The translations under genes were made by a program, and so were the position numbers. Positions 16,878 to 38,086 of a DNA stretch of 38,086 nt are shown piece by piece (within the stretch, counting starts at the first letter, position 1; each line of letters starts with the position of its first letter). The stretch comes from Methanosarcina sp. (lineage in GTDB: Archaea; Halobacteriota; Methanosarcinia; Methanosarcinales; Methanosarcinaceae), in contig NZ_JAQUVZ010000035.1 of the NCBI RefSeq assembly GCF_028693135.1, positions 1 through 38,086 on the forward strand, given 5' to 3'. The notes beneath the pieces were generated by a model. That model worked only from the letters and a program-made list of their open reading frames with translations, searched no databases and had not been told where the DNA came from.

Positions 16878-18383
16878 ATGAAAAAGAATATTGTTGTATT
16901 GGTGCTCATTTTTTTAATTGTTTTTTCAGTCGGTTCGGGATGCATATCTTCCGATGTAATGTCTTCCACGAATACGTCTTCAGATGAAGCTGATGAAAAC
17001 CCGGGAAAGAGTGCAGACAGTGAGCCGAACCAGGAAAATATAACGCCTTATGAAAAATCATCCCCCTACCTTTACTGGGAATATGAACTTGGAGATGTGA
17101 CCCCTGAAAATATCCTGGTCGGAAGATCGAGCATCCAGGACTGTGTAAGTTTTGCTCCGGATGGGAAATCCGTGGCTGTCGGGACAGGCTCGAACCTTAT
17201 AGTTATTGACGTGCCGGAAAAAAATGTGCTCTGGAAAAAGGCCCTCAAAGGAAACATTTCATCTATAGCATTCTCAAAAGACGGAAAGTACCTGCTTGCG
17301 GGGGAGAGGAGTGCTGATGGCTACATATACTCCCTGGATGCCGGCACAGGAGACGAGATCCGGATATACAGGACTGCCGATGATCTGGGGACAAGTACCA
17401 ATCCAAAATACCAGCCCTGCATATACCGGATAACGGCTGCAGAGGATGCTGTGTACATTGCGGCAGGCAGATACTGGAAAGATTCCGGATACGGGCTGGC
17501 TTCAAGGGTTTACAGGTTCAGCTCCGATGGCACCTTCTGCTGGAAACTCCCGGCGGCAGAAAATTACGCCCGGAGTGTGAGCTGGGTTGATTCAAGCCAG
17601 GACGGAAAAAATGTAGTATTTTCAACAGGGGACTGGACAAATTCCCTTGAAACGGATGCAGTCGTCTACTCTGTGGATGAAAACGGAAATCGCCGCTGGA
17701 AATACGAAATTCCTGCCCTCAGACCTTATTTTGTTTCTGCAGCCATCTGGCACGGGCTTGATGTTTCGGAAGACGGGTCCCTTATAACGGCCTATACAGG
17801 GGACGGGAGAAAATACCTCTTTTCTGACTTAGAGATGAAAGAGCCGGGAGACGGAGAGTCCGAGTGGTACTCCGAAGAATATCAGTCCAATGTGACAGTT
17901 CCGGAGGAACTTGAAGGAAGTATCATCTACACTTATGGTGAAAACGCAAAAATCACTGCCAAAAACGAGATGCTCTACCTTACGGGAGCCACACTTCCCG
18001 CATATTATCCCGATAATGTCCCCATGGCGCATCCTCTTGAAAATTCCCTCATATTCTGTGATGCAGAAACAGGAGAAGTTTCCTGGACTTATAGCCTGGG
18101 AGGGCGCTGTGCAGGGATCTTCTTCTCTCCGGATATGAGGTTCTTTGTCCTGCCAGTCGGCAAAGATACATCCGCGGGCAATACTCAGGTCCACGGGGTC
18201 CATGCCTTTGATAACCAGAAATCCGGGAATGGGAATTCAAAGCTGCTCTGGACCTTCAATACCGAAGGGGTTGTTGTGGATGCTGCGATTTCTTCGGACT
18301 GCACCGTAGCCGCAGTTGAAGTCCCTCTGCAGCTCAAAAATGGGGATGTAACCGGAAAACACAGATTAATAATTGTCAGGTGA
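16878..18383 (+). CDS. Beta-propeller lipoprotein 1
   Basis: A 501-residue exported lipoprotein. The signal peptide ends in a lipobox (VGSG before Cys22), followed by a Ser/Glu/Asp-rich linker of about 35 residues. The rest is made of repeated propeller blades, visible as YSLDAGTGDEIRIY, VYSVDENGNRRWKYEI, CDAETGEVSWTYSLG and ISSDCTVAAVEVP, similar to PQQ-like or WD-like blades. It is paralogous to the next gene over the whole propeller. Such lipoproteins act as extracytoplasmic binding or scaffolding modules; the ligand is unknown. It ends 4 bases before the next start. Confidence 0.85.
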   Translation: MKKNIVVLVLIFLIVFSVGSGCISSDVMSSTNTSSDEADENPGKSADSEPNQENITPYEKSSPYLYWEYELGDVTPENILVGRSSIQDCVSFAPDGKSVAVGTGSNLIVIDVPEKNVLWKKALKGNISSIAFSKDGKYLLAGERSADGYIYSLDAGTGDEIRIYRTADDLGTSTNPKYQPCIYRITAAEDAVYIAAGRYWKDSGYGLASRVYRFSSDGTFCWKLPAAENYARSVSWVDSSQDGKNVVFSTGDWTNSLETDAVVYSVDENGNRRWKYEIPALRPYFVSAAIWHGLDVSEDGSLITAYTGDGRKYLFSDLEMKEPGDGESEWYSEEYQSNVTVPEELEGSIIYTYGENAKITAKNEMLYLTGATLPAYYPDNVPMAHPLENSLIFCDAETGEVSWTYSLGGRCAGIFFSPDMRFFVLPVGKDTSAGNTQVHGVHAFDNQKSGNGNSKLLWTFNTEGVVVDAAISSDCTVAAVEVPLQLKNGDVTGKHRLIIVR

Positions 18384-18387
18384 GAAA

Positions 18388-20106
18388 ATGAAATGGAAAC
18401 TTTTGATAGCCCTGCTTATACTGGCTTTAATGACTGCAGGATGTGCTGAAAAAAATCAGGAGTCCGGCAGCAGCGGATCGGCCCAGGCTTCGGGGTCAGG
18501 AATACAGGATACGCAGGAAAGAAGTAATTCCGAATCTGGGGTGCCCATAGACTCGGTAGTTTTCTCAAGGACCGGAGCCCTGCTAACCCTGAAAGATGAG
18601 GTGGAGATCTTAGAGATCAGGATTTCTTCAGACAACAATCCGGTGGCTTCGCTGGGTATTGAAAAAACCGAAGCCCAGGTCTTTGTAGCTTTTGATTGGA
18701 ACCCTGAAACCCGGTATAAGTTTGAGGTGATAACGGGTTCAGGAACATCCAGTGCTCTTGAGGTATATGCGCCTGAAAAACCGGCTTTGAAAGAGGAGTA
18801 CACCATAGAGCTTGAGGATGTAACTCCCGGACCCATCGAAAAAACTTCAACGAATATAAAAGGTGTGACGAAATTCTCTCCTGACAACAGTTATCTTGCC
18901 ATTGGAACTCATGGGGGTGCTCTGAAACTTATAGAAGTTGCAACAGGAGAAAAGGTATGGGAAAAGCAGCTTGTTAAAGGGATATCGGATGCGAGAATCG
19001 CGGACATAGAGTTTTCAGAGGACAGTAAACGCCTTATTGTAGGAGAAGAGAGCCCTGATGCTTATATATATTGTTTTGACCTCAACGGTACCGAACTCTG
19101 GAAATTTGGGGCAAGTGAAGACCTGGGTTCAGACCTCAAGTACATGCCTGCCATGAAAAAGATAAAAATTGATTCAAATGGGAATATTTATGTCGCTGCC
19201 AGCAGGGCCTGTGGCTATATAGGTGAGAAATACAAGTACCTCGGAAGGGTTTATTCTTTTGACCCTGAAGGCAACATGCGCTGGAAATTCCCTGAAACCG
19301 AACTCATGGACTCAGGAGTTACATGGATTGATTCCACTCCTGACGGAGAATACGCAGCTTTTGGCACCACCTGTTTTACAAAGGCAGATAAATGGCAAGA
19401 TGGAACCGTGCATGTCCTGAACGGAAATACGGGAGAAGAGCATTGGAGCTACAAAATCCCACCAATTGAACCATTCTTTGACTATTCTGCAATCTGGTAC
19501 AGCACACAGATCACCCCTGATGGGGAACAGGTAATAACAATGACAAGTGATGGCCGGGCCTTTTTATTCAATAATTCCCGGATAATTGAGACAGGAGTTC
19601 CTGAGATTACGTGGCAGCAGAACATCTCAACCCCGATAGTCGTAAGTGGAGTCCCCATCTACGGCAGTGCGAATTATGCTTACATTGTCAACGACACCCT
19701 GATCTTTTCAATAGGGAGCACTTTTTCCAAAGATAAGAATAAGGATGCTCCTTTTGAACACCCCAATGGAAACAGCCTCTTTGCCTATGATTATGACGGA
19801 AACCTGCTGTGGAAATGGAGACTGGACGGCTATGCAGGGGAATGTGCTCGGAATGACCGTTATCTTGTGATACCTATTGCCCAGAACCTGGTAACCGAGG
19901 ACAGAAGCGTTCACGGGGTCTATGTCTTTGACGTCTCAAAAAGCGGAGGGGCAAGCTCCAGGCTCAGCCAGATCTACGGCACCGAAGGAATAACGGTATC
20001 AGTTGATATATCTTCTGACGGCAGGTATATTGCAGCCTTAGAAGCCCCCGCAAGGCTTGATGACGGCACGGTACTCGGAGAATACAGAGTTCATATCCTG
20101 ACCTGA
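18388..20106 (+). CDS. Beta-propeller lipoprotein 2
   Basis: A 572-residue exported lipoprotein with lipobox MTAG before Cys19. I chose ATG at 18388 since GGTGAG, formed around the stop of the preceding gene, is well placed; a TTG at 18373 is possible but would overlap. After a Ser/Gly-rich linker comes a domain absent from the first lipoprotein (about 50-135), then a propeller whose blades match those of the preceding protein (CFDLNGTELWKFG, VHVLNGNTGEEHWSYKIPPIEPFF, YDYDGNLLWKWRLDGYAG, ISSDGRYIAALEAP). The pair looks like a tandem duplication followed by divergence. It lies 9 bases before cobN. Confidence 0.87.
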   Translation: MKWKLLIALLILALMTAGCAEKNQESGSSGSAQASGSGIQDTQERSNSESGVPIDSVVFSRTGALLTLKDEVEILEIRISSDNNPVASLGIEKTEAQVFVAFDWNPETRYKFEVITGSGTSSALEVYAPEKPALKEEYTIELEDVTPGPIEKTSTNIKGVTKFSPDNSYLAIGTHGGALKLIEVATGEKVWEKQLVKGISDARIADIEFSEDSKRLIVGEESPDAYIYCFDLNGTELWKFGASEDLGSDLKYMPAMKKIKIDSNGNIYVAASRACGYIGEKYKYLGRVYSFDPEGNMRWKFPETELMDSGVTWIDSTPDGEYAAFGTTCFTKADKWQDGTVHVLNGNTGEEHWSYKIPPIEPFFDYSAIWYSTQITPDGEQVITMTSDGRAFLFNNSRIIETGVPEITWQQNISTPIVVSGVPIYGSANYAYIVNDTLIFSIGSTFSKDKNKDAPFEHPNGNSLFAYDYDGNLLWKWRLDGYAGECARNDRYLVIPIAQNLVTEDRSVHGVYVFDVSKSGGASSRLSQIYGTEGITVSVDISSDGRYIAALEAPARLDDGTVLGEYRVHILT

Positions 20107-20115
20107 GGGGGAAAA

Positions 20116-23100
20116 ATGAAAATCGTTTCAATAACCTGGAATTCATACATCCCCACGCTTCTTGAAGCAGCAGAGGAACGTGGAATAGAGCTTGAAGCCT
20201 ACTACTCAAAAATCCTGGAAGAAAACCCTGAAGAAACGGAGAAGGTGCTTTCTGCATGTGAGCACGCTGATGCCATCTTTATTTACCATGTAGCCAACCC
20301 GTTCTGGGAAGAATTCTATGAAAAGCTCGAACCCTTAAAAACAAGGATACCCGTAATCTGCGTGGGGAGTAACCCCTCCAGTTTCACCCTTTCTTCCGTA
20401 AAACTTGAGATTGCAGCTACATGTTTTTCTTACATAATATACGGGGGAAAAGAAAACTTTGGAAATATGCTGTGCTACCTCCTAAAAGAGGTTTTTGGGG
20501 CTGAGCTTGAAGTAAAACCCCCGGAAAAGATTCCATGGGACGGGCTCTATCACCCGGATGCCAGGGAAATGTTCTCAAGCCTCCGGGACTACCTGAACTG
20601 GTACGGGCCCCTGAAAGGTAAAACCGTGGGGCTGCTCATTTCCAGGACTTCCTGGGTAAACAATGACCTTGAAATTGAAAAGACCCTCATAAGAGATTTC
20701 GAAAACCTGGGCCTTTCTGTCGTCCCTGTTTTTGCATATTCGTTAAAAGATGAAGAACTCGGGAGCAGAGGCATGAATGAGGTCATTGAAGATTACTTTA
20801 TGGATAACGGAAAAACCGTCATAGACGCTCTTGTGAAGCTCTCCCCGTTTTTCATAATGAGCAGCAAAAACAAAGAAGATGAAAACTCATGTGCAGAAAG
20901 AGGCGTCGAACTGTTACAGAGCCTCGACGTCCCTGTTTTCCAGCCTGTGATTTCCCACTACGTTACCTTAGAACAGTGGCAGGAGTCTCAGGGATTGAGT
21001 ACAGAGATCGGGTGGGGGGTAGCCATGCCTGAGTTTGAGGGGGTAATTGAGCCCATCCTCATAGGGGCAGGCAAAAATGAAGGAAATTACATAGGGCGTG
21101 CTCCTATCCAGGAACGCTGCTCAAAACTTGCATCCAGAATCCTTAAATGGATAACCCTTCGGAAAAAACCGGTAAACCAGAGAAAAATTGCCTTTATCCT
21201 GCACAACAGGCCCTGTACAGGGGTTGAAGGCTCGATTGGGGATGCTGCAAACCTTGATTCCCTCGAAAGCGTGGCAAAGATATTAAACCGGATGCAGGAA
21301 GCAGGCTATACTGTCAGTCCTCCCCAGAACGGGAAGGAGCTTATCGAGACCATTCTCAAGAAAAAAGCGATTTCCGAGTTCAGATGGACCCCAATTAATG
21401 AAATTGTAAAGAACGGTGGGACTCTCGCTTTTGTGGAAAAAGAAGAATACGAGAAGTTTTTCAACACCCTGAGCCCGGTTGTCAGGCAGAGGGTAATTGA
21501 GAGCTGGGGGAACCCACCCGGGGAAGAAGTCAACGGCATTCCTGCTGCAATGGTCTATGAAAACAAAATCGTTGTGACAGGGATACAGTATGGAAACGCT
21601 GTAGTCTGTGTACAGCCGAAGCGCGGGTGTGCAGGAGCCAGATGTGACGGAAAAGTCTGCAAGATCCTGCACGACCCTGATGTCCCTCCAACCCATCAGT
21701 ACCTTGCTACCTACCGGTATCTGGAAAACACTTTTGGAGCGGATGTACTCGTACATGTGGGGACCCACGGAAACCTTGAGTTCCTGCCCGGAAAAGGGGT
21801 GGGGCTTTCAGGAGACTGTTATCCTGACATCGGAATCGGGACTATCCCCCACCTCTACATTTACAATTCCGATAACCCCCCGGAAGGCACCATTGCCAAA
21901 CGTAGGAGCCTTGCCTGCCTTATTGACCATATGCAGACAGTCATGACCTCAGGAGGGCTTTATGGAAGCCTTGAAGAACTTGACAGGCTGCTCGGGGAAT
22001 ACGAACAGGTAAAATACGATAAAGGACGGGCACATGCCCTGAAGCATCTGATCCTTGACGAGATTAAAAAATCGAACCTGGACTCCGAGATAAAAGCCGA
22101 CCACCAGACTCCTTTTGAGGAGATTATAAGGAAAGCGCATGAAGTCCTTGGAAAGATCAGGAACAGCCAGATCCACAACGGAATGCACATCTTCGGGCAG
22201 CTCCCCGAAGGCGAGAAGAAAGTTGAGTTCATAAACTCTATTTTAAGGTATGATGAGCAGGAAAGTGAGGGAAAAGGGGTTTCGATCCGGAGGCTGATTG
22301 CAGGGCTTCTTGGGCTTGACCTTGATGAACTGATCTCTGACCAGAGCCTGATTTCAGCAAATGGAAAGTCAAATGGGCAAAGGCTTGAGGAGATTGATTC
22401 GCTCTCAAAAGATTTCATCAGGACATTCATAAGTAACCCGGAAAAAGAGTCTGCCTCGATAATTAAAGAGGTTCTTTCAGGGCAGAGTTTTGCAGAGCAG
22501 AATATTACAAAACAGGTTTTGATAGAGCAGGATTTTACAGGACAAAGTATTGCAGAAAAAAGTTTTATAGAGCCAATTATTACAGAACCGGGATTCAAAG
22601 AACAGCGTTTTGAGGTTCAGAGCATAGACCCGACCTCATCCCGGATCGCTTCTGCAATCTGTGAAAGGATTCTTGACCTTGAGTCCAGAATAGATGCCTC
22701 TCTGGAGATTGAAGCTCTTCTCCATGGTTTTGACGGAGGGTACATCCCGGCCGGACCTTCAGGCCTTATCATGCGCGGAAGAGATGACGTACTGCCAACT
22801 GGCAGGAATTTTTATTCTCTTGACCCAAAACGGGTCCCGACAAAAGCTGCCTGGAGAGTGGGACAGCAGCTCTCAGGGGTTTTGATCGATAAACACCTCA
22901 GAGATGAGGGGCGTTATCCTGAAAACGTAGCATTTTACTGGATGGCAAACGACATCATGTGGGCTGATGGAGAGGGTATGGCCCAGATTATGAGCCTGCT
23001 CGGGGTTGAACCGCTCTGGCTTGGCAATGGGCGCCTTAAGGGGTTTTCCGTGATCCCCCTGAAAGAGCTGGAAAGGCCCAGGATTGATGTTACTATCAGG

Positions 23101-24078
23101 ATCTCGGGAATCCTCAGGGACAACTTCCCGAACTGCCTGGAGGTAATAGATGAGGCAATTCAGGCTGTGGCTTCTCTTGACGAACCTGAGGACATGAACT
23201 ACCCACGAAAACACAGCCACAAGATGATTGAGGAAGGCGCGGATCCCAGAGAAGCTACTTTAAGGATCTTTTCAAGCAAACCCGGGACCTATTCCGCCGG
23301 GGTGCAGCTTGCAGTCTATGCAAGTGCCTGGAAAGATGAAAAGGACCTGGCAGACATCTTCCTTTACTGGAACGGGTATGCCTACGGAAAAGACGTAAAG
23401 GGCCAGGAAGCCCACACCCAGCTTGCTTCAAACCTCAAGACGGTTGATGCTACCTTTAACAAAGTCGTCAGTGACGAGTACGACCTCCTTGGCTGCTGCT
23501 GTTACTTTGGGGTTCATGGGGGGCTCACGGCTGCCGCCAAACAGGCTTCGGGCAGGGACGTGAAGGTCTATTTTGGGGATACGAGAGAACCACAGCATGT
23601 CGAAGTTCGGGACATGGCTGATGAACTGCGGAGGGTCGTAAGAACCAGGCTTTTAAACCCCAAATGGATCGAAGGCATGAAACAGCACGGGTACAAGGGC
23701 GCACAGGACATTTCGAAGAGAGTCGGAAGGGTCTACGGCTGGGAAGCTTCCACGCAGGAAGTGGACGACTGGATCTTTGATGATATCACAAAGGCTTTTG
23801 TGCTTGATGAAGAGATGCGCAAGTTCTTTGAAAAGAACAATCCCTACGCTCTTGAGGAAATGTCCCGCAGGCTCCTTGAAGCGCAGTCAAGAGGGCTCTG
23901 GAACCCTGACCCGCAGGTGTTTGAAGACCTGAAAAACTCTTACCTTGAGATCGAAAGCTGGATGGAAGAGCTAGCAGGGGAAGGAGAGTTTCAGGGAGGG
24001 GCTGTGGACATCATGAGCTTTGAAGATGTCCCTGACTGGGATCGGAAAATGCAGGAAATCCGAAAAATACTCAAATGA
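20116..24078 (+). CDS. cobN: CobN-type metal chelatase large subunit
   Basis: The tetrapyrrole-binding large subunit of a CobN/BchH-type chelatase, 1320 residues, normal for the family. Conserved blocks include a cysteine cluster in GCAGARCDGKVC (about 507-518), HVGTHGNLEFLPGKG starting at 547, GGYIPAGPSG (about 874), and the C-terminal YFGDTREPQH and VGRVYGWEAS segments. In cobalamin synthesis CobN inserts cobalt into a corrin ring, powered by AAA+/vWA partners; the fused partner is encoded divergently at 12008-14116. Paralogues can serve other tetrapyrroles (bacterial HmuS, linked to haem use, is one), so the metal and ring are not settled by sequence. Residues about 790-838 are an unusual insert of ten 15-nt repeats. 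GAGGGGG precedes the ATG. Confidence 0.93.
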   Translation: MKIVSITWNSYIPTLLEAAEERGIELEAYYSKILEENPEETEKVLSACEHADAIFIYHVANPFWEEFYEKLEPLKTRIPVICVGSNPSSFTLSSVKLEIAATCFSYIIYGGKENFGNMLCYLLKEVFGAELEVKPPEKIPWDGLYHPDAREMFSSLRDYLNWYGPLKGKTVGLLISRTSWVNNDLEIEKTLIRDFENLGLSVVPVFAYSLKDEELGSRGMNEVIEDYFMDNGKTVIDALVKLSPFFIMSSKNKEDENSCAERGVELLQSLDVPVFQPVISHYVTLEQWQESQGLSTEIGWGVAMPEFEGVIEPILIGAGKNEGNYIGRAPIQERCSKLASRILKWITLRKKPVNQRKIAFILHNRPCTGVEGSIGDAANLDSLESVAKILNRMQEAGYTVSPPQNGKELIETILKKKAISEFRWTPINEIVKNGGTLAFVEKEEYEKFFNTLSPVVRQRVIESWGNPPGEEVNGIPAAMVYENKIVVTGIQYGNAVVCVQPKRGCAGARCDGKVCKILHDPDVPPTHQYLATYRYLENTFGADVLVHVGTHGNLEFLPGKGVGLSGDCYPDIGIGTIPHLYIYNSDNPPEGTIAKRRSLACLIDHMQTVMTSGGLYGSLEELDRLLGEYEQVKYDKGRAHALKHLILDEIKKSNLDSEIKADHQTPFEEIIRKAHEVLGKIRNSQIHNGMHIFGQLPEGEKKVEFINSILRYDEQESEGKGVSIRRLIAGLLGLDLDELISDQSLISANGKSNGQRLEEIDSLSKDFIRTFISNPEKESASIIKEVLSGQSFAEQNITKQVLIEQDFTGQSIAEKSFIEPIITEPGFKEQRFEVQSIDPTSSRIASAICERILDLESRIDASLEIEALLHGFDGGYIPAGPSGLIMRGRDDVLPTGRNFYSLDPKRVPTKAAWRVGQQLSGVLIDKHLRDEGRYPENVAFYWMANDIMWADGEGMAQIMSLLGVEPLWLGNGRLKGFSVIPLKELERPRIDVTIRISGILRDNFPNCLEVIDEAIQAVASLDEPEDMNYPRKHSHKMIEEGADPREATLRIFSSKPGTYSAGVQLAVYASAWKDEKDLADIFLYWNGYAYGKDVKGQEAHTQLASNLKTVDATFNKVVSDEYDLLGCCCYFGVHGGLTAAAKQASGRDVKVYFGDTREPQHVEVRDMADELRRVVRTRLLNPKWIEGMKQHGYKGAQDISKRVGRVYGWEASTQEVDDWIFDDITKAFVLDEEMRKFFEKNNPYALEEMSRRLLEAQSRGLWNPDPQVFEDLKNSYLEIESWMEELAGEGEFQGGAVDIMSFEDVPDWDRKMQEIRKILK
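22483..22632 (+). repeat. Ten degenerate 15-nt in-frame repeats inside cobN
   Basis: Starting with CAGAGTTTTGCAGAG, ten consecutive 15-base units encode a five-residue period: QSFAE, QNITK, QVLIE, QDFTG, QSIAE, KSFIE, PIITE, PGFKE, QRFEV, QSIDP. The third position of each block is always F, I or L, giving a pattern like that of pentapeptide-repeat proteins. The block lies between two conserved CobN regions and looks like a lineage-specific insertion. Confidence 0.85.
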
Positions 24079-24091
24079 AAAAGGTTGCGGA

Positions 24092-25666
24092 ATGAAAAAC
24101 ATAGTTTTTTTCTTCCTTATACTGGTGCTGGCTATACAACCTGCAGCAGCCCAGGTACAGGAGGAATTCAAACCTGAAGATATGACCACATTCATGATTC
24201 AGGTCCCACATGGTGTGGAAGGAAGCGGTCTTGCAGTCGGAGGCAGCAACCTTTCTGCATATCTTTTTTTTGAGAGTTATTATGACGGAAATATGAATGT
24301 GACAATGGAACTTGACTTACCTGAAGGTTTTGTGCTTCAGGATACCTCTGTCTATTCCTTTTCGCTTCAGACCGAGTATGAGGACTGGTACAGGCTCGTT
24401 GATTTTTATGTGCCTGCTAACCTCTCCTCCGGGACCTATAACATAACGGCAACTGCGGTTGTCGAAGTCGGAGGAAATAAGCATACCATTGTGCGCAAAA
24501 CCCGGCTTAAGGTTGCTTCGAAAGAGGAAATTGCAGAAGAAATCGAAATATCCGGACTTACAGTGCCCTCCGATGAGGACGGGTACGGAGACCCAAGCCA
24601 TCCTTCCAGCACCCTGGTTGTCCGGGAAAACTCCCCAGCGCTCAAAAAGCTACTTAAGGTCACAGACCTCCGGATCGATAGGGAGGAACTCACTTCAACC
24701 TACATAGGAGTGGAGCTTACCAACAAAGGAGACAGTACAGTCCCTGTTATAATCACCTATGATGTCCTGGACATTAAGACCGGAGAACCGGTAAAAGCCT
24801 TCAAACCAGCAATTATGGGAATGAACTCGGATACCCTGTGCTATGCCACTTTAACACTTAGCCCGGGTTCAAGTTCGCTGGTAAGCCTCCCCCTCTATAT
24901 ATCTGAGGATGCGATGGGAGGAGAGTACCTGCTAAGAGTTAAGGTAAAGCTCACAGGCAGCGACTGGGTTGCAGTAACACAGGATCAAAAAATAACTGCG
25001 ATCTCAAGGAAATGGGGACCCATAATAATTACTCTGGTCTCCTCTTTACTTGGACTAACTACCGTAAGCCTCTTCTTTTCAAGATCAAAGGAGATAATGG
25101 ACAGGTTTAAGACCCGTAACCTTGTGCTGATATCCCTTTTTGGAACCGTTTCTTTTGCAGCCATAAACCTGCCTATGACTATTCTTTGGGAGCTGTCCCA
25201 TGCAGTATTCGGGCCATTCAGTTTCCTGTTTACGGGGCTCTTCTATGAGATTCTTCTTTATATGCTCATTGCCTCTCTTGTTGTCCTGATTCCAAAACCC
25301 GGAGTTGTAAGCCTTTTTATGATGGTAAGGTTCCTGCTTGGAGGCTTTATAACCGGGAGTTTCACCCCGATCACTTTCATAACATTGTCCCTGAGCGCGG
25401 TACTGCTGGAGGTCATGATGTACACTGCAGGCATAACCAGCAAAAACCCGAACCCGGAAAACAGGTTCAGAATGGGGATTGTCTGCGGAATTGCCGATAT
25501 GGTCAGCGGATATGCATCCTTCAGTGTCTGGATGGTGCTCTACAGGCTGTTCTATAGCGACTGGTATATTATGGCAAATATCCTGATCGATGGCTTCCTC
25601 TACACTTTCATAGGAGCCTGGTTTGGAATAAGCCTCGGAAACAGGCTGAAAAAGGTGGCAGAATAA
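24092..25666 (+). CDS. Membrane protein with ectodomain, candidate ECF S component
   Basis: A 524-residue protein with three parts: a signal peptide (about 1-20, ending QPAAAQ), an extracytoplasmic beta-rich region (about 25-305) with segments like GVELTNKGDSTVPVIITYDV and YLLRVKVKLTG that resemble immunoglobulin-like domains, and a C-terminal block of six or so membrane segments (about 308-518). It sits directly before genes for the ECF ATPases and T component, where the substrate-binding S component is expected, and the size of its membrane part fits. It does not start with the MHIPDG motif of the cobalt S component CbiM, so the substrate is unknown. ATG 24092 was chosen because it begins the signal peptide, 13 bases after cobN. 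The S-component role is inferred from context. Confidence 0.75.
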   Translation: MKNIVFFFLILVLAIQPAAAQVQEEFKPEDMTTFMIQVPHGVEGSGLAVGGSNLSAYLFFESYYDGNMNVTMELDLPEGFVLQDTSVYSFSLQTEYEDWYRLVDFYVPANLSSGTYNITATAVVEVGGNKHTIVRKTRLKVASKEEIAEEIEISGLTVPSDEDGYGDPSHPSSTLVVRENSPALKKLLKVTDLRIDREELTSTYIGVELTNKGDSTVPVIITYDVLDIKTGEPVKAFKPAIMGMNSDTLCYATLTLSPGSSSLVSLPLYISEDAMGGEYLLRVKVKLTGSDWVAVTQDQKITAISRKWGPIIITLVSSLLGLTTVSLFFSRSKEIMDRFKTRNLVLISLFGTVSFAAINLPMTILWELSHAVFGPFSFLFTGLFYEILLYMLIASLVVLIPKPGVVSLFMMVRFLLGGFITGSFTPITFITLSLSAVLLEVMMYTAGITSKNPNPENRFRMGIVCGIADMVSGYASFSVWMVLYRLFYSDWYIMANILIDGFLYTFIGAWFGISLGNRLKKVAE

Positions 25667-25720
25667 AGGTGGCAGGTAGAATAAGGTGGTACATTGAGGC
25701 AGAATAAAGGTGGTAAAATG
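25651..25720 (+). repeat. Array of AAGGTGG repeats ending in the ecfA ribosome binding site
   Basis: Four degenerate units occupy the end of the membrane-protein gene and the whole gap before the ATPase gene: AAAGGTGGCAGAAT (25651-25664), a variant at 25665-25682, a longer one at 25683-25705, and AAAGGTGGTAAAATG (25706-25720). Each has an AAGGTGG core, a good Shine-Dalgarno sequence, but only the last is spaced correctly for the ATG at 25718. Confidence 0.75.
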
Positions 25721-27538
25721 ATAGAGATCAAAGACCTGTGGTACACCTATCCCGGAAGAACAGACCCGACGTTAAAAGGGGTCAATCTGAAAATAGAGGA
25801 GGGGGAATTCGTCCTCCTAACAGGACCTACCGGCTGCGGGAAGAGCACTTTACTAAAAACCCTTAACGGCATAATTCCCCACGAATCCGGAGGAAAATTT
25901 TCAGGCAGCATCCGAATCAACGGGATAGAAACCCGAGATTCAAACCAGATGGAACTTTCAAGAGGTGTAGGCCTTGTTTTCCAGAACCCCGATGACCAGA
26001 TCTTTTCGACGACCGTTGAGGACGAGGTAGCCTTTGGGCCCGAAAACCTCTGCCTGGAAAGGGAAGAGATTGATAAGAAGGTAGAAGAAACCCTTCAGAT
26101 GGTCGGAATGTCCGGGCACCGGCTGGATTCCACGAATTCACTTTCAGGGGGGCAGAAACAGAGGATTTGCATTGCAAGCATGCTTGCGATGATGCCTGAA
26201 ATCCTTGCCATGGATGAACCCGTAAGCCAGATGGACCCGGTGGGCACCCGGGAAGTCCTGAATACTGTGAGGGAACTTAACAGGAAACTGAAAATAACCA
26301 TTCTGCTGGTTGAGCACAGGATACACGAGCTTGCACCTTTTGCAGATAGGATTGTCATTATGGACGGCGGAGAAATAATCTTTGACCAACCCGCTTCAAA
26401 AGCTTTTGATCATCTCGAGGTCTTTCACAGGCTGGGACTTCGGGTTCCTGAACCCGTTGAACTCTGCCACCGACTGGGAATAAGGGCAAGTCCCCTCAGT
26501 GTCAGGGAAACTCTTGCCGTGCTGAACAGGAAACACTTTAAAGAAAATATGAAAACTCCTCAGTTCTTTTCAAACCCGAAAGAAGATACTGAAGCACTAC
26601 CTGAAGCACGAGCTGTCTCTCCCGGAAATAATGATCCTATCGGAAATAACGATTCTGTAGATTCTGTAATATCTATCCGGGATATGTGGTCCGGATATGA
26701 AAAAAACAGTATGGTGCTTAAGGGGATAAACCTGGAAATCCGTAAAGGGGAAAGAGTTGCGGTCATGGGTACAAATGGCTCAGGCAAATCAACCCTGCTT
26801 TTGAACCTTGCAGCCATGCTTAAACCATATAAAGGAAGTGTAAAGGTCTTTGGGGAGGACACCAGATCCAGAAATCCGTATTCCTTTGCAGGTAGAGTTG
26901 GGTTCGTATTCCAGAATCCTGACCTTATGCTCTTCTGTGATTCAGCTGAGGAGGAGGCAAGGTTTGGACCTGTTCAGTTAAAATTTGAGAATATAGAGGA
27001 AAGGGCAAGAACCTCCCTTGAAGCCATGTCAATTCTAAACCTCAAGCAGGACCTCCCCCAGTCCCTGAGTCGGGGGCAGAGGCTCAGGACAGCCGTTGCC
27101 TCGGTACTTTCCATAAATCCGGAGATTATTCTCCTTGACGAACCTACAACAGGGCAGGATAGAGTGAATATAGAACAGATGATGGATTATTTCAAAAATA
27201 ACCGTTCCACACTGGTTTTCTGTACCCATGATATCGAGATTGCAATGCTCTATGCTACAAGAATCCTTGTGATGAATGAGGGCCAGATTATAGCAGATGG
27301 AAAGGGAAGAGATGTCATAAAGGACATTGAGATCCTCAGGAAAGCCTCCCTTACCCAGCCCCCGGTTGTTGAGATTGCTAAATATCTGGGAGTGGATGCT
27401 TTTTCGGTCACAGAACTTGTGGAAATGCTGACCTGTAGAAGTTCTGAAGCGAGAAAATCTGAAGTGATAAATTCTGAAGTGATAAATTCTGAAGTGATAA
27501 ATTCTGAAGGGATAAAATCAGAAGGGATAAAATGCTGA
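25718..27538 (+). CDS. Fused double ECF ATPase (EcfA-EcfA')
   Basis: The energy-coupling ATPases of an ECF-type importer in one 606-residue chain. The first domain has Walker A GPTGCGKS (36-43), VFQNPDDQIFSTTVEDEVAFGPEN, signature LSGGQKQR, Walker B ILAMDEP and the H-loop LLVEHR. After a linker rich in acidic residues and asparagine, the second has GTNGSGKS (about 350-357), VFQNPDLMLFC, a modified signature LSRGQRLR, Walker B IILLDEP and FCTHD. The FQNPD..F pattern is typical of cobalt/nickel/vitamin ECF ATPases. ATG 25718 was chosen for its AAGGTGG site; an upstream TTG is less likely. The C-terminus is a 15-nt repeat tail. Confidence 0.94.
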   Translation: MIEIKDLWYTYPGRTDPTLKGVNLKIEEGEFVLLTGPTGCGKSTLLKTLNGIIPHESGGKFSGSIRINGIETRDSNQMELSRGVGLVFQNPDDQIFSTTVEDEVAFGPENLCLEREEIDKKVEETLQMVGMSGHRLDSTNSLSGGQKQRICIASMLAMMPEILAMDEPVSQMDPVGTREVLNTVRELNRKLKITILLVEHRIHELAPFADRIVIMDGGEIIFDQPASKAFDHLEVFHRLGLRVPEPVELCHRLGIRASPLSVRETLAVLNRKHFKENMKTPQFFSNPKEDTEALPEARAVSPGNNDPIGNNDSVDSVISIRDMWSGYEKNSMVLKGINLEIRKGERVAVMGTNGSGKSTLLLNLAAMLKPYKGSVKVFGEDTRSRNPYSFAGRVGFVFQNPDLMLFCDSAEEEARFGPVQLKFENIEERARTSLEAMSILNLKQDLPQSLSRGQRLRTAVASVLSINPEIILLDEPTTGQDRVNIEQMMDYFKNNRSTLVFCTHDIEIAMLYATRILVMNEGQIIADGKGRDVIKDIEILRKASLTQPPVVEIAKYLGVDAFSVTELVEMLTCRSSEARKSEVINSEVINSEVINSEGIKSEGIKC

Positions 27539-27563
27539 CCTGTAGAAACCCTGAAGTGATAAT
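27423..27563 (+). repeat. 15-nt repeat tail of ecfA and 18-bp flanking duplication
   Basis: Five near-identical 15-base units starting TCTGAAGTGATAAAT run from 27458 to 27532 and encode SEVIN, SEVIN, SEVIN, SEGIK, SEGIK. They are flanked by an exact 18-bp direct repeat, AAATGCTGACCTGTAGAA, at 27423-27440 and 27530-27547. In the second copy the reading frame is shifted so that its TGA becomes the stop. Another unit-like segment (CTGAAGTGATAAT) follows just before the next ATG and provides its ribosome binding site. Confidence 0.85.
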
Positions 27564-28457
27564 ATGATAGGTGCCAGATCAATTGCAGAACCAACGATTA
27601 AAGACACAATTATTCACAGGATGGACCCACGGGCAAAGATACTGGTCCTCATCTCCACTGCTTTTATCGCAGTAACCCTTGACAATCCTGAAACTACGTT
27701 TTTGTTGTTTCTGATCGTACTTTCGGGATTTGCACTTGCAAGGATGCCGGCAATAAAGATCAAAACCCTGACTTTACTACTTGTGCTGTTGATCTGGGGA
27801 ACTATCTACTCTCAGGCTCTTTTTTATTCCCAGCTTCCAAGAACTGTGATTTTTACTATAATCCAGCCTGATTTCCCGGTTCTGGGCTGGCTGACAAACG
27901 GAGGGCTGTTCGTATATGAAGAAGGGCTCCGGCACGGCGCAATTCAGGGATTAAGATCGGCTTCAATCCTGTCCCTTGGGCTGTTGATGTGCTGGACCAC
28001 GGACTCGAGGGATATGCTAAACGGCCTGGTGGGACTCAGGGTTCCTTACAGTGTAGCCTTTATGGTGGTAACAGCAGTCAGGTTCCTGCCAATAATAATC
28101 ACTGAAGTGGTTACTGTAGTAACAGTCCAGAGACTCCGGGGGTTTAATCCGAAAAGGTTTGGGCCAGGGATCGTCAAAACGTCCCTTAATATACTGACCC
28201 CCACTCTCTCAAACTGCGTAAGGAGAACCGGCACCCTTGCAGTTTCAATCCAGAGCCGGGCTTTTAGGGCAAACCCGGACAGGACATACCTCAAAAAACT
28301 GAAGTTTTCGGAACTTGATAAGGCAATGGTCACGGCCTGTATTTTTGCTGCCATAAGTATTGTCATCATAAAGCTTCTTTATAATATGTACACAAGTGGA
28401 ATTTACTATACTTCAGGTTTAAGGCCTGTTTATGCGATTGCAAGGGGATACCTGTGA
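27564..28457 (+). CDS. ECF transporter T component (CbiQ/EcfT family)
   Basis: The membrane scaffold that couples the ATPases to the S component. The 297-residue protein has an N-terminal IHRMDPRAKI motif typical of the family, several membrane segments (for example LVLISTAFIAV, TLLLVLLIWGTIYSQALFY and the last near 258-275) and the cytoplasmic helices with two arginine-containing coupling motifs: QRLRGFNPKRFGPG and SIQSRAFRANPDR. These contact the two ATPase domains. It starts 25 bases after the ATPase gene and its stop overlaps the next GTG start. Confidence 0.92.
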   Translation: MIGARSIAEPTIKDTIIHRMDPRAKILVLISTAFIAVTLDNPETTFLLFLIVLSGFALARMPAIKIKTLTLLLVLLIWGTIYSQALFYSQLPRTVIFTIIQPDFPVLGWLTNGGLFVYEEGLRHGAIQGLRSASILSLGLLMCWTTDSRDMLNGLVGLRVPYSVAFMVVTAVRFLPIIITEVVTVVTVQRLRGFNPKRFGPGIVKTSLNILTPTLSNCVRRTGTLAVSIQSRAFRANPDRTYLKKLKFSELDKAMVTACIFAAISIVIIKLLYNMYTSGIYYTSGLRPVYAIARGYL

Positions 28458-32026: not shown

Positions 32027-34942
32027 ATGAAACAATTCGATATAAATCTGGAATCGCTTATAAATAGCAGCCCTATAGTCATTTTTTTGTGCAAATCAAC
32101 AGAGAACTGGCCTGTGGAACTTATCACGGAAAACATCTGGCAGTTCGGCTACGCAGTTGAAGACTTCATCTTCGGAAATATCCGGTATCTCGACATTGTC
32201 CATCCTGAGGATATTAAAAGGGTAAAATCTGAGATTGCCAGATGCTCTGAAAAGGGATGTACTGAGCTGACACAGGAATACAGGATAGTGACAGCTTCGG
32301 GGGAAACGCGCTGGATTGAGGTAAAGATTCTGATCCGGAGAGATGAAGATGGACGTGTGAGCCATTACCAGGGCACTCTCTGCGATGTTACCCAGCGCAA
32401 AAAAGCCGAGGAGTCGATGCAAAAAGCGCTGAAAAAGAATAATGAATTGAAAAATGTCATCAACAGCAGCCCTGTATTCGTATTTTTATGCAAGCCAGAA
32501 GAGGGCTGGCCCGTTGAATTTGTATCTGAAAATATCACAAAGCTGGAATATACCCCTGAAGATTTCACCTCTGGAAAAATAAAGTTTGAAGACCTGATAC
32601 ACCCTGAAGACCGTGAAAGAATCCGCGCGGAAGTGGCAAAGTTTTCCAGAGAAGGACATAAGGACTGTACCTAGGAGCACCGGGTCCTGACAAAATCGGG
32701 AAAAGTGCGATATATAGATGATAGGAGCCTCATCAAAAGAAACGAGAAAGGAGAAATTGTCCATTACCAGGGGATCGTTCTGGACATCACCGAACGCAAG
32801 CTGGCCGAGGAGATGGTGAAAGGACAGAATCTGGTGCTCGGGCAGCTGGCTTCAGGAGCTCCACTCGAAGAAGTGCTTCTCCTTCTGATTCAAAATATGG
32901 AAAAAATCAGACCAGGCTCTATATGCTCGGTAATGCTGCTTGACAGGGAGAAAAAGCATCTCTTTTACTGCGTTGCTCCCGGACTTCCTGAGTTTTACAG
33001 GCAGAAGACGGACGGAATCGAGATTGGTTTTGGAGCGGCTTCCTTCGGAACCGCAGCCTTCTTGAGAAAAAGGGTAACCGTAGATAATGTAATGGAGCAC
33101 CCCTACTGGACTAAATACAGTGAGCTTGCAACTGAGGCCGGATTGAAAGCCTGCTGGTCAGAACCTGTAGTCTCATCCTCCGGAGAAGTCCTTGGTGTTA
33201 TTTCCATGTACTACGGCGATGTGCACAGGCCAGAGAAAGAAGATCTGGATTTTATGAAAACAAATGCCCAGCTGGCAGCTATCGCAGTAGAACATAAACT
33301 GGCAGAAGAGACCCTCTGGGAGTCCGAGCATAAGTTCAGGACCATTTTCAATAATATCAATGACCAGCTGTACATCCGCGAACCTGAAGGAAAAAGTTAC
33401 ATGGATGTAAACCAGGCAGTGGTAAACCGGCTGGGATACGATAAAGAAGAGATCCTGAAAATGGAGCCTGAGGAGATTATTCCTGCCGAGTACTGGGACT
33501 CTGTCCGGGAAAATCTAATAAAAATCCAGAGCGAGGGATCCCGGGTATATAAATCAGGAGCAGTATGTAAGGACGGCACAATTGTTCCCCTTGAAGTCAG
33601 TGCCAGAATTATTGATTATGACGGCAAGAAAACGATCCTCTCGGTTGCCAGGGATATTACCGAGCGCAAAAAAGCCGAAGCTGCACAGAAACTTAACGAA
33701 TCCCGGCTTGAAGCCCTTGTAAAACTTAACCGGATGGCAGGGGCTTCCTTAAAAGAAATAACAGATTTTGCTCGCGAAGAAGCGGTCAGGCTTACAGATA
33801 GCAAACTCGGGTACCTCGCTTTTATGGACGCCTATGAGACCTCCCTCATCATGCATTCCTGGTCAAAGAGCGCAATGGAAGAATGTACAATCGAAGACAA
33901 GCCCTTTATCTACCCTATAAAAACAACAGGGCTCTGGGGAGAGGCAATCCGGCAACGTAAGCCCATTATAACCAATGATTATCCAGCTCCTAGTTCCCTG
34001 AAAAAGGGATACCCGAAAGACCATGTGCACCTTACCCGCCATATGAACGTGCCAATTTTTGACGGGGACAGGATAATTGCAGTTGCAGGAGTTGGAAATA
34101 AGGATGAGCCCTATGATGAATCGGACTTACGCCAGGTGACCCTTCTCATGCAGGGCATGTGGCAGCTTATCCAGAGAAAACAGCTTGAGGACGCCCTTAA
34201 AACCTACTCGGAAGATATGTCAAAAGTCAATGATGAACTCAGGTCCCTGAACCGGATAAAAGCGGAATTTATGGCTGAAAGCCTCCCCCAGATAAAGGTG
34301 AATTACAGCGACCTTATGGATTTCGAGACCCTGGAGACTATCGAAGACCAGCAGCATAAAGCTATAGATGCCGTAATCAACAGTTCGGAGCGGTTGAAGC
34401 AGATGGTGGATTCCCTGCTCTATCTGAGCCTTGAACAGGCAGGAAAGATCGAGTACTCTTTTGCCGAAGTAGAGATTAAGAAGATACTTTCGGATGTTTA
34501 CCTTAACCTGGTCCTCCTGATAGATGAAAAAGAACTGAAGGTCGAAAAGGAACTGCCTGCAAACCTGCCACCCATCCTTGGCGACAAGCAAAAATTGACA
34601 GACCTCTTCACAACCCTCATGGGCAATGCCATCAAGTTCACACCCCACGGGGGGACGCTGGAAGTAAAAGCCACAGAGGAAGAAGAGAACATCCACATAA
34701 CCGTAAAAGACAGCGGAACAGGCATTCACAAAAGACTGATCCCTCACCTTTTCCACAGGATCTACCAGATTGACGATTCCATGACCCGCAGGTACCAGGG
34801 ACTTGAATCAGGGTTCTATATCTGTAAAAACATTGTCAACGCCCATGAAGGGGAAATCTGGGTAGAAAGCGAGGAAGGTTCGGGAACCACGGTGCATGTC
34901 AGGCTTCCAAAAAAGAACGTTGAAACCGGAAATGTGAATTAA
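32027..34942 (+). CDS. PAS/GAF sensor kinase-like protein with in-frame TAG (candidate pyrrolysine)
   Basis: One 971-codon gene interrupted by a TAG at 32672-32674 (codon 216); the frame continues directly as EHRVLTKSGKVRYIDDR, completing the second PAS domain. Order: PAS1 (about 5-130), PAS2 (143-262), GAF1 (272-432), PAS3 (434-560), GAF2 (572-725), a dimerisation-like helix region, and HATPase_c (about 820-968) with N box NAIKFTP, DSGTGI and GLESGFYICKNIV. PAS1 has Gln (TQEYRIV) where PAS2 has TAG (T-TAG-EHRVL), one base from CAG. The expected H-box histidine is replaced by Pro754 in EFMAESLPQIK. Cys620 in GAF2 is a candidate haem or redox residue by analogy with MsmS/RdmS of M. acetivorans. 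It lies before the Msr-type regulator and mts gene. Alternatives to pyrrolysine: readthrough, a truncated 215-residue product, or recent pseudogenisation. Confidence 0.88.
32672..32674 (+). other. In-frame TAG codon in the sensor gene
   Basis: TAG at codon 216 lies in the second PAS domain, with sensor sequence continuing in the same frame for 755 more codons. No other gene that ends in this window uses TAG as its stop: the 24 stops are all TAA or TGA. In Methanosarcina TAG can be decoded as pyrrolysine. Whether this codon is decoded cannot be seen from sequence. Confidence 0.85.
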
Positions 34943-34991
34943 ATATAGTCGAAGTTGAAAAATGTTCAAATTAAGTGGCTGGAGATTTACG

Positions 34992-35792
34992 ATGAAACTG
35001 GAACTACTGGGTACTCTTTTCCTTTCGGACAAAAGGAAAGACCTTCTTTTGCTACTGATGGAGGAACCCCGAAACATTGACGATATAAAAAACATACTCA
35101 ATGTGACTTCAAGTGCGATCATGACCCAGGTCAAGATCCTCATCAGCCAGGGGCTTATCATTCATGAGGACGACCTTTACAAACTTTCTGATATCGGGAG
35201 GGTAGTAGTTAAGAAAATGAGGCCTCTTCTGAACACCCTGAACGTGTTTTCAGAGCATATGGACTACTGGGAGAACCACAATATCAGCGCAATCCCTGTT
35301 CCCCTTCTGGACCGAATAGATGACCTCGGGCACTGCGAATTCATCGAACCCGACCTTGACAGGATGTATGAGATCCCCCAAAAAATCGAAGAAAAGCTGA
35401 CCATTTCAACCCATGTTATGGAAGTTTCTTCTTATTTTAATCCTGCTTACCAGTCAACCTATGTCGAACTCGTGAAAAAAGGAACTGACGTATCTCTGAT
35501 AATCACAAAGCCAGTATTCGAAAGGCTGAGAAGGGAATATAGCACAGCCCTCATGGAATATCTGGATAGAGACAATGCAAAAATCTTCGTCTGCGACTGC
35601 GCTGTAAAAGTAGCTTCAAGTGTGGTAACAGACCATTTTCTGGCTCTCTCCCTCTTCTATAGAAACGGGATATACCACAATCATGCCATGATGAGTATGG
35701 AAAAAACAGCCCTGAAATGGGGAGAAGACCTCTTTTTGCATTACATGAAAAATTCAAAGGAAATAAAAGAAATCGAATGCGAGAAAACCTGA
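34992..35792 (+). CDS. Msr-type transcriptional regulator (wHTH plus FilR1 domain)
   Basis: A 266-residue archaeal regulator: an N-terminal winged helix (about 8-75; DDIKNILNVTSSAIMTQVKILISQGLI) and a C-terminal domain of the DUF1724/FilR1 type (about 140-262, with PVFERLRREYS and GIYHNHAMMSMEKTALKWGEDLF). Members called MsrA-MsrG control methanol and methyl-sulfide methyltransferase operons in M. acetivorans. I chose ATG 34992, 7 bases after GGAG; ATG 34962 has no good binding site. It lies 49 bases after the sensor gene and about 700 bases before the mts gene, its probable target. The exact Msr member (MsrF in the mtsD locus is my best guess) is not certain. Confidence 0.88.
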   Translation: MKLELLGTLFLSDKRKDLLLLLMEEPRNIDDIKNILNVTSSAIMTQVKILISQGLIIHEDDLYKLSDIGRVVVKKMRPLLNTLNVFSEHMDYWENHNISAIPVPLLDRIDDLGHCEFIEPDLDRMYEIPQKIEEKLTISTHVMEVSSYFNPAYQSTYVELVKKGTDVSLIITKPVFERLRREYSTALMEYLDRDNAKIFVCDCAVKVASSVVTDHFLALSLFYRNGIYHNHAMMSMEKTALKWGEDLFLHYMKNSKEIKEIECEKT

Positions 35793-36500: not shown

Positions 36501-38086
36501 ATGGCAGCAGATATCTTAAACCAATTAGCGGAAGCTGTCGTCGACGGAGACGACGACCTTGTAGAAGAACTTGCACATAAATCACTGGCTGACGGCGTTG
36601 ACCCCTACGACGCAATCGTCAATGGGCTGGCAAGAGGAATGGCAATTGTCAGCGACCAGTACGAAAAGGGAGAAGCCTTCGTACCCAACCTGCTCCTTGC
36701 CTCTGGCGCAATGTATGCAGGTATGGACATCCTTACCCCCTACATGAAGGCAGCAGACTCAGGCCTGCAGGCAGTGGGTGTTATAGGAACCATTGAGGGA
36801 GACGTGCACGACATCGGAAAGAACCTCGTCAAGACGATGCTCAGTGCCGGTGGTTTCAAAATGATCGACCTGGGAGCAGATGTCCCGATCGAGAAGTTTA
36901 TCGAAACCGCAAAAGAGAACAAGGCTGACCTGATCTCCATGAGCGCCCTGATGACCACAACCATGACCAACATGGAAAAAGTCATTGAAATCCTTCAGGA
37001 AGAGGGAATTCGCGACTCCATGGTTGTAATGGTCGGAGGTGCCCCTGTCTCTGAAGAGTATGCCGCAGGAATCGGTGCAGACTCAACTCACCCTGATGCA
37101 ATGCACGCAAACGCCTGGGCATCCGAAGCTGTAAAAGAACTTGAGCCCAAAGAAGCAAGGTGGAGCGAAGTGAAGGTCAACCTTGGGAAGATTAAATACA
37201 GGGAAATCCTCGCAAAGAAAGTAGTCTCCGAAAAGGTTGACATCGGGCTTGAGACTGCAAACAGGATCAAGGAAGAATTCGAAAGCATTGGCGTGAAGAG
37301 CAAGGAGGAAATGACCCACATCGACAGGACCGTATCCGCCATGTCCGACAAGAAGGTCGACCGCCTGCCTGTCTACCCACTCGCCTGTGGTGTGCTCAGG
37401 AAGTTTGCCGGGGTCAACTACAGGGACTATGCCACAAAAGCAGAACCTTTCACCCAGAGCGCTTTCCTTGGCTGTAAATACCTGGACCTTGATATGTTCG
37501 TGGGTCTCGCCGACCTTTCAGCCACATCCGCAGACTTCGGATGTAAGATCAAATACCCCGAAGACGACACCCCGTCCTCCGAAGGGCACATTAAAGATTA
37601 TGAGAAGATCGAAGTTCCTGAACTTAAAAAAGGAACCCGCGGCTATGAACTGGTCATGGCCTCAAAGATGGCAAAGGAAAAACTCAACAAGGAACTCAAC
37701 ACCCCCTTCGTCGGTTTCCACGAGGGCCCACTCCTTACCCTTACCCAGCTCATGGGTGCAGACCGCGTGCTCATGGACATGAAGACCCAGCCGGATGTTG
37801 TCCTTGAAGCAGTCCAGAAATGTACCGACTACATCTGCCAGCTCTCAGAGCTCTTCTTCAGTGAAGGAGCCTGTGACGCTCTCTGTATCGACAACCTCTG
37901 GTCAAACAACGTCATCATGAGCGAACAGGACTACTGGAAGTTCGACGGCAAGTTCGTCTTCGACCAGCACATCCCGATTTTCAAGCAGTACAACCAGCCA
38001 TACGTAATCCACAACTGTGCTGATGCCGTGCACTTCGAGACCCAGATCAGGAAGTTCGGAACCTCCCTGTACAGCTACGCCTACTA
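36501..38086 (+). CDS. mtsD: Fused corrinoid protein/methyltransferase, Mts type (partial)
   Basis: The first 528 codons of a gene that runs off the window. Residues 1-212 are a corrinoid-binding domain with a helical cap and the cobalamin motif DVHDIG (His103 as lower ligand), SMSALMTTTM and VGGAPVS. After a charged linker (about 212-240) comes a uroporphyrinogen-decarboxylase-type methyltransferase domain (GFHEGPLLTLTQLMG; zinc-site start HNC at 504-506). Fusion of both parts in one chain is the hallmark of the MtsD/MtsF/MtsH methyl-sulfide methyltransferases, which move methyl groups between methylated sulfides or thiols and coenzyme M; methanol enzymes use separate MtaC and MtaB. The neighbouring sensor and Msr-type regulator favour mtsD, though mtsF or mtsH cannot be excluded. 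Start supported by AAGGAGG at 36484. Confidence 0.88.
   Translation, partial: MAADILNQLAEAVVDGDDDLVEELAHKSLADGVDPYDAIVNGLARGMAIVSDQYEKGEAFVPNLLLASGAMYAGMDILTPYMKAADSGLQAVGVIGTIEGDVHDIGKNLVKTMLSAGGFKMIDLGADVPIEKFIETAKENKADLISMSALMTTTMTNMEKVIEILQEEGIRDSMVVMVGGAPVSEEYAAGIGADSTHPDAMHANAWASEAVKELEPKEARWSEVKVNLGKIKYREILAKKVVSEKVDIGLETANRIKEEFESIGVKSKEEMTHIDRTVSAMSDKKVDRLPVYPLACGVLRKFAGVNYRDYATKAEPFTQSAFLGCKYLDLDMFVGLADLSATSADFGCKIKYPEDDTPSSEGHIKDYEKIEVPELKKGTRGYELVMASKMAKEKLNKELNTPFVGFHEGPLLTLTQLMGADRVLMDMKTQPDVVLEAVQKCTDYICQLSELFFSEGACDALCIDNLWSNNVIMSEQDYWKFDGKFVFDQHIPIFKQYNQPYVIHNCADAVHFETQIRKFGTSLYSYAY

Follow-up and report, generated by a model that had tools for sequence, protein, structure and literature searches.

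A conserved in-frame UAG codon, probably decoded as pyrrolysine, in the PAS/GAF sensor RdmS of Methanosarcina and its relatives

Our analysis of a 38,086-nucleotide stretch of DNA from Methanosarcina sp. (the window, below) indicates, with a probability that we put at about 90%, that it carries an orthologue of the sensor RdmS whose codon 216, a UAG, is translated as pyrrolysine (Pyl) in competition with the release factor, that the product is one 971-residue protein, and that the codon has a single origin. Pyrrolysine in the RdmS orthologue of M. acetivorans is already known. What is added here is the presence of the codon throughout the sampled RdmS clade, its likely single origin and its link with a methyl-sulfide methyltransferase locus, and also that the conservation of the RdmS TAG is unlike the sporadic UAG cases that we encountered. 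Pyl beyond the methylamine methyltransferases is usually regarded as rare or neutral, and a signalling protein that has UAG in 16 of 16 orthologues, against Gln, Lys or His outside the clade, offers a test case for use of the 22nd amino acid outside methylamine catalysis. The features of the locus are collected in Table 1.

Table 1. Features of the rdmS locus, in positions of the window.
Feature	Position	Strand	Remarks
rdmS orthologue	32027..34942	+	971 residues, counting the TAG as pyrrolysine; domains: two PAS_3, GAF, PAS, GAF, HATPase_c
In-frame TAG	32672..32674	+	codon 216 of 971; inside predicted PAS2 strand 213-221
CAG, Gln 83, PAS1 counterpart of codon 216	32273..32275	+	from PAS1/PAS2 alignment
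Regulator, ArsR-type HTH + FilR1_middle	34962..35792	+	domain match
Corrinoid (B12-binding) protein fused to URO-D-type methyltransferase	36501..38084	+	runs off window

The sensor ORF contains a single internal stop, the TAG at codon 216, and its terminal stop is TAA. Past the TAG the frame remains open for 755 residues that cover the rest of PAS2 and the GAF, PAS, GAF and HATPase_c domains, so that the first-pass annotation, which had been made from the sequence alone and had claimed a TAG at this codon with an intact frame downstream, was correct on this point. It was also right in placing a Gln (CAG) at the PAS1 counterpart of the codon, and in stating that no gene in the window terminates in TAG: the window has 78 mechanically called ORFs, from which we picked 22 likely genes besides the sensor, and none of these does so (0/22), a count in which the stop of the methyltransferase ORF is unseen, as it lies beyond the window end.

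The codon was compared among relatives in two overlapping collections, the first of which returned 17 loci while the second consists of 111 family genomes. In the first collection TAG occupies codon 216 in all ten loci that are at least 80% identical; the eleventh locus, 60% identical, has AAG at the site, and six bacterial loci (28-53% identical) either align weakly at residue 216 (two loci, with TAT and AAT) or do not align there (four loci). An orthologue at least 80% identical (80-100%) was found in 16 of the 111 family genomes, from two genera, and every one of these 16 sequences has exactly one TAG, always at codon 216. The orthologues of the 15 genomes besides the source genome are 80-95% identical, and L035, which repeats the letters of L011, stands outside the 16-sequence set. 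A paralogue about 60% identical has AAG (Lys) at the site in each of the three genomes that hold it (L016 and L065 represent one record, hence three genomes in the Lys clade), and TAG is present in 0 of the 31 rows of 48-57% identity that cover residue 216; in the 19 of these rows where the codon was read it is CAG 18 times and CAT once. The comparison across related genomes that the first-pass annotation had proposed thus gave TAG in 16 of 16 orthologues and CAG in none; the homologues in which we saw CAG or AAG all lie outside the 16-sequence RdmS clade. TAG is one of 76 invariant codons among the 964 gap-free codons of the 16 sequences, and its presence in all of them is beyond chance. A sequencing error or a pseudogene as the source of the TAG was set aside because 16/16 orthologues carry it; the codon is real, and reflects neither error nor decay.

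In a protein tree the 16 TAG-bearing sequences, which include L031, the copy in the genome that we take to be M. acetivorans (G001), form one clade with a support of 99, and this clade is sister to the AAG paralogues with a joint support of 100. With a single TAG clade that is sister to AAG paralogues, one origin of the TAG is the simplest reading, and since homologues outside the clade have AAG, CAG or CAT, the codon likely arose on the RdmS stem by a one-base change from Gln (CAG) or Lys (AAG) and would then have been kept in the sampled lineages. The sequence from the window groups with this presumed M. acetivorans copy and has the multi-PAS/GAF and HATPase_c architecture of an RdmS orthologue. 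RdmS of M. acetivorans (MA0863), as found in G001, is 88% identical and likewise has TAG at codon 216; it differs in belonging to another species. The AAG paralogue, which also lies beside a related regulator, is presumably MsmS (MA4561), the heme-based sensor of M. acetivorans, and differs from RdmS in having Lys AAG instead of TAG in 3/3 genomes. The available part of one report describes MsmS as highly similar to RdmS (PMC11784639).

Coding constraint was measured by region on both sides of the TAG in the 16 sequences. Upstream, dN/dS is 0.12 and 0.08; downstream, region by region, it is 0.07, 0.08, 0.04, 0.03, 0.07 and 0.06. The regional means of pairwise dS are 1.09-1.45, and pairs whose dS was undefined or large were excluded (85-115 of 120 kept). 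Both flanks are under purifying selection (dN/dS 0.03-0.12), and the low values downstream indicate that the sequence after the TAG is under selection at the protein level. One could still imagine that the TAG terminates translation and that the remainder is a second gene or the remnant of a decaying one, given that mechanical ORF calling breaks the gene at the TAG and that an in-frame ATG stands at codon 263 in 11/16 sequences. We find this extremely unlikely in view of the identical TAG position in 16/16, the dN/dS of 0.07 immediately after the TAG, a break that would fall within a predicted PAS strand, and the fact that codons 217-290 hold no start codon common to all 16. The best candidates in that interval are the ATG at codon 263 already mentioned (11/16) and the GTG codons 227 and 270 (8/16 each); reinitiation after the TAG was rejected, as start codons there are present in at most 11/16.

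The structural context was taken from an AlphaFold2 model of residues 1-430 with Lys placed at position 216 (mean pLDDT 87.3, pTM 0.55), from which, because of the pTM of 0.55, only the placement within domains was used. Residue 216 is predicted to lie within the PAS2 strand 213-221, in a ten-residue block with a mean pLDDT of 91, so a stop at this position would leave a broken domain: termination at the UAG would yield PAS1 and a PAS2 interrupted within its sheet, and the product would lack any output domain. The 50 matches listed in a fold search were PAS-containing or phytochrome-type proteins (DosP, LOV-HK, FixL and others), with low overall TM-score.

The means to read UAG as pyrrolysine are present in the source genome, which has a tRNA-Pyl (anticodon CTA) followed by an adjoining PylS match; a PylS match was found in 15/16 rdmS genomes, and the exception, G026, is 60% complete. 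The mtmB matches of the source genome are four fragments at contig ends (G000 contigs C32, C37, C47 and C76, perhaps because a duplicated gene was left unresolved in assembly); their matched parts, which are without TAG, carry no weight as a control. Both mttB matches (2/2) have one internal TAG each. Given the TAG in 16/16 orthologues, the purifying selection on its flanks (dN/dS 0.03-0.08 downstream), the presence of tRNA-Pyl and PylS and the TAG-bearing mttB, pyrrolysine at codon 216, which had been put forward as a candidate, is well supported on genomic grounds.

We infer that tRNA-Pyl decodes UAG 216 as pyrrolysine, and that it would do so by plain competition with the release factor and with no special signal in the mRNA. 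The product would be a single 971-residue RdmS, probably the cytosolic PAS/GAF sensor that serves the methyl-sulfide methyltransferase locus. Two reviews, in the parts available, describe Pyl insertion as such a competition between tRNA-Pyl and release factor for which no mRNA motif is needed, and the PYLIS element as not required (PMC9499178, PMC8211752). A sliding scan of the 16 sequences gave no synonymous constraint near the TAG, and the 120 nt from the TAG showed no unusual folding in the 5 of 16 sequences that were folded (z-scores -0.30 to -1.45). No PYLIS-type downstream RNA element was seen in the scan or in these five foldings, and a cis RNA element around the TAG was rejected, as neither approach gave a signal.

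Pyrrolysine is written O in the one-letter amino-acid code. An RdmS_O216K variant of M. acetivorans was produced, with reference to the 2019 RdmS paper, according to the available portion of PMC7542351, so that residue O216 is named in the literature at the same position as here; despite this name, the word pyrrolysine is absent from that portion of the article. As the letter stands for pyrrolysine and the position is the same, specialists already know of the M. acetivorans case, and the question raised in the first-pass annotation, whether pyrrolysine in RdmS had been reported, can be answered with yes. PMC7542351 is the single article with O216K among the literature matches listed, and a literature search for RdmS together with pyrrolysine found no paper. 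The accessible main text of PMC11784639, in which RdmS is no longer regarded as a redox-dependent autokinase but as an ATP-binding kinase whose substrate is unknown, contains no pyrrolysine, Pyl, amber or O216; excerpts of PMC11619418, PMC6944256 and PMC7278568 mention RdmS without pyrrolysine; the reviews PMC9499178 and PMC8211752 do not mention RdmS in the sections at hand; and PMC1242214 and PMC11363022 gave no match for this sensor. For M. acetivorans RdmS, covalent heme, ATP binding and the lack of H-box autokinase activity are reported in the available parts of PMC11784639 and PMC7542351. A 2013 article, in its accessible part, lists for M. acetivorans, M. mahii and M. barkeri a UAG-containing sensory histidine kinase under the name 'cluster 16' (PMC3639795), which may be RdmS or another TAG-bearing sensor; in the one other such sensor that we saw (in G063) the TAG lies in a different region from the RdmS TAG.

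RdmS may be set beside other genes with in-frame TAG. The 2021 review, as far as available, gives transposases and Thg1 as the only other Pyl proteins known beyond the methyltransferases, and Thg1 of M. acetivorans resembles RdmS as a non-methyltransferase gene with an in-frame TAG (PMC8211752). Thg1 differs in that its TAG occurs in 1/26 full-length genus matches against 16/16 for RdmS, where the Thg1 codon was read in G000 and G001 and the other 24 matches were judged by open-frame length; a Thg1 fragment in G016 also contains TAG. In the presumed M. acetivorans copy of Thg1 (L077, G001:C1:950800-952700) the TAG stands where the source genome (L081, G000:C1:54200-55600) has Trp. The methylamine methyltransferases MtmB, MtbB and MttB share the in-frame TAG, in the source genome too (MttB, 2/2), but their Pyl is in the active site according to the same review (PMC8211752, in part), whereas no catalytic role is known for the Pyl of RdmS. 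A separate GAF/HATPase sensor of genus g10, L063 (G063:C1:1469662-1471305, minus strand), has TAG before HATPase_c at a position whose RdmS counterpart is Gln, and its relatives (up to 78% identical) have no other TAG among the matches listed.

Why the codon is kept is a different matter from how it is read. There are three potential reasons: first, a UAG point mutation is tolerated in a Pyl-decoding cell and Pyl adds nothing over Gln or Lys; second, the codon acts as a regulatory switch; and third, Pyl contributes its own chemistry. Neutral retention, which concerns the keeping of the codon and is compatible with its decoding as Pyl, is in our estimate a serious possibility that falls somewhat short of even odds. 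Homologues bearing Gln or Lys have open frames across the site, and the O216K protein could be produced and binds heme, as stated in the available part of PMC7542351. A neutral control, in which a two-state T/C model was fitted at 115 two-fold pyrimidine sites on the 16-sequence tree, gave about 3.2 substitutions per site across the tree. Under it, a free T would remain T in all 16 sequences with a probability of 0.03 when one rate is used and 0.07 with gamma rates, values that still leave room for neutrality, as do the numbers of invariant two-fold sites (14/115 pyrimidine, 27/115 purine) and of Gln-invariant sites with a single codon kept (10/18). The sporadic UAGs elsewhere, in Thg1 (1/26 full-length and the G016 fragment) and in the genus g10 sensor, also speak for tolerance of the codon; however, these are confined to single genomes, while the RdmS codon persists in 16/16 over about 3.2 substitutions per site. 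Leu sites, where a first-base T/C change can be silent, likewise do not fit easily with neutrality, as 0 of the 21 sites having any T are all T (33/54 are all C). Selection against reversion to CAG is therefore suggested, though a marginal value at one site is modest evidence.

The second reason, that full-length RdmS tracks the supply of Pyl-tRNA, as the first-pass annotation had suggested, and so ties methyl-sulfide control to methylamine or Pyl status, would be in keeping with the TAG in 16/16 orthologues, with the marginal outcome of the neutral test and with the finding, in the accessible part of a review, that UAG in Acetohalobium is Pyl only during trimethylamine growth (PMC8211752). 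We consider such a switch unlikely, as there is neither synonymous constraint near the TAG nor unusual folding after it, and UAG read-through of up to 97% is given for some methylamine methyltransferase genes in the same part (PMC8211752); with read-through this high, a graded switch would have little scope except when the Pyl supply falls. The third reason, that PAS2 uses Pyl for chemical sensing, a small nucleophile or amine reacting with the imine ring so that the residue itself takes part in signal input, appears quite improbable. It could draw on the predicted position of residue 216 in the PAS2 sheet, on the TAG having been retained instead of reverting and on the active-site location of Pyl in methylamine methyltransferases (PMC8211752, in part), but the structure model carries Lys, not Pyl, at 216. 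That Pyl in RdmS is kept by selection, with methyl-sulfide control depending either on Pyl supply or on Pyl-ring chemistry in PAS2, seems to us doubtful. If it were true, biochemistry on Lys-substituted RdmS would have missed that input. The published Lys substitution is a ready comparison for the role of Pyl in RdmS, and M. acetivorans is genetically tractable.

The first-pass annotation had claimed a methyltransferase neighbour, and the ORF at 36501, with its B12-binding and URO-D domains, bears this out. We take this fused protein to be an Mts-like methyl-sulfide methyltransferase and the regulator between it and the sensor to be Msr-like; the location of the gene with these two is that of an RdmS orthologue. 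The ArsR-type/FilR1_middle regulator follows rdmS directly in 10/10 orthologous loci, and the fused methyltransferase is present at 9/10, the tenth contig being just 4.3 kb. In a sample of 30 genomes of the genus, a comparison that does not extend to the four g5 genomes, the fused methyltransferase (at least 90% identity) and rdmS occur in the identical 12 genomes, and none of the other 18, some of which are incomplete, has either at that level. The two genes co-occur as if they were one module.

Two minor observations concern the surroundings of the sensor gene. The regulator beside one orthologue (L019:9185-9999) matches in two mutually out-of-frame pieces, possibly from a frameshift or an assembly error. 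Upstream of the sensor locus, positions 16878-28457 of the window contain CobN, CbiQ and paired ECF-type ATPase domain genes, which are related to cobalt or corrinoids, together with two beta-propeller proteins.
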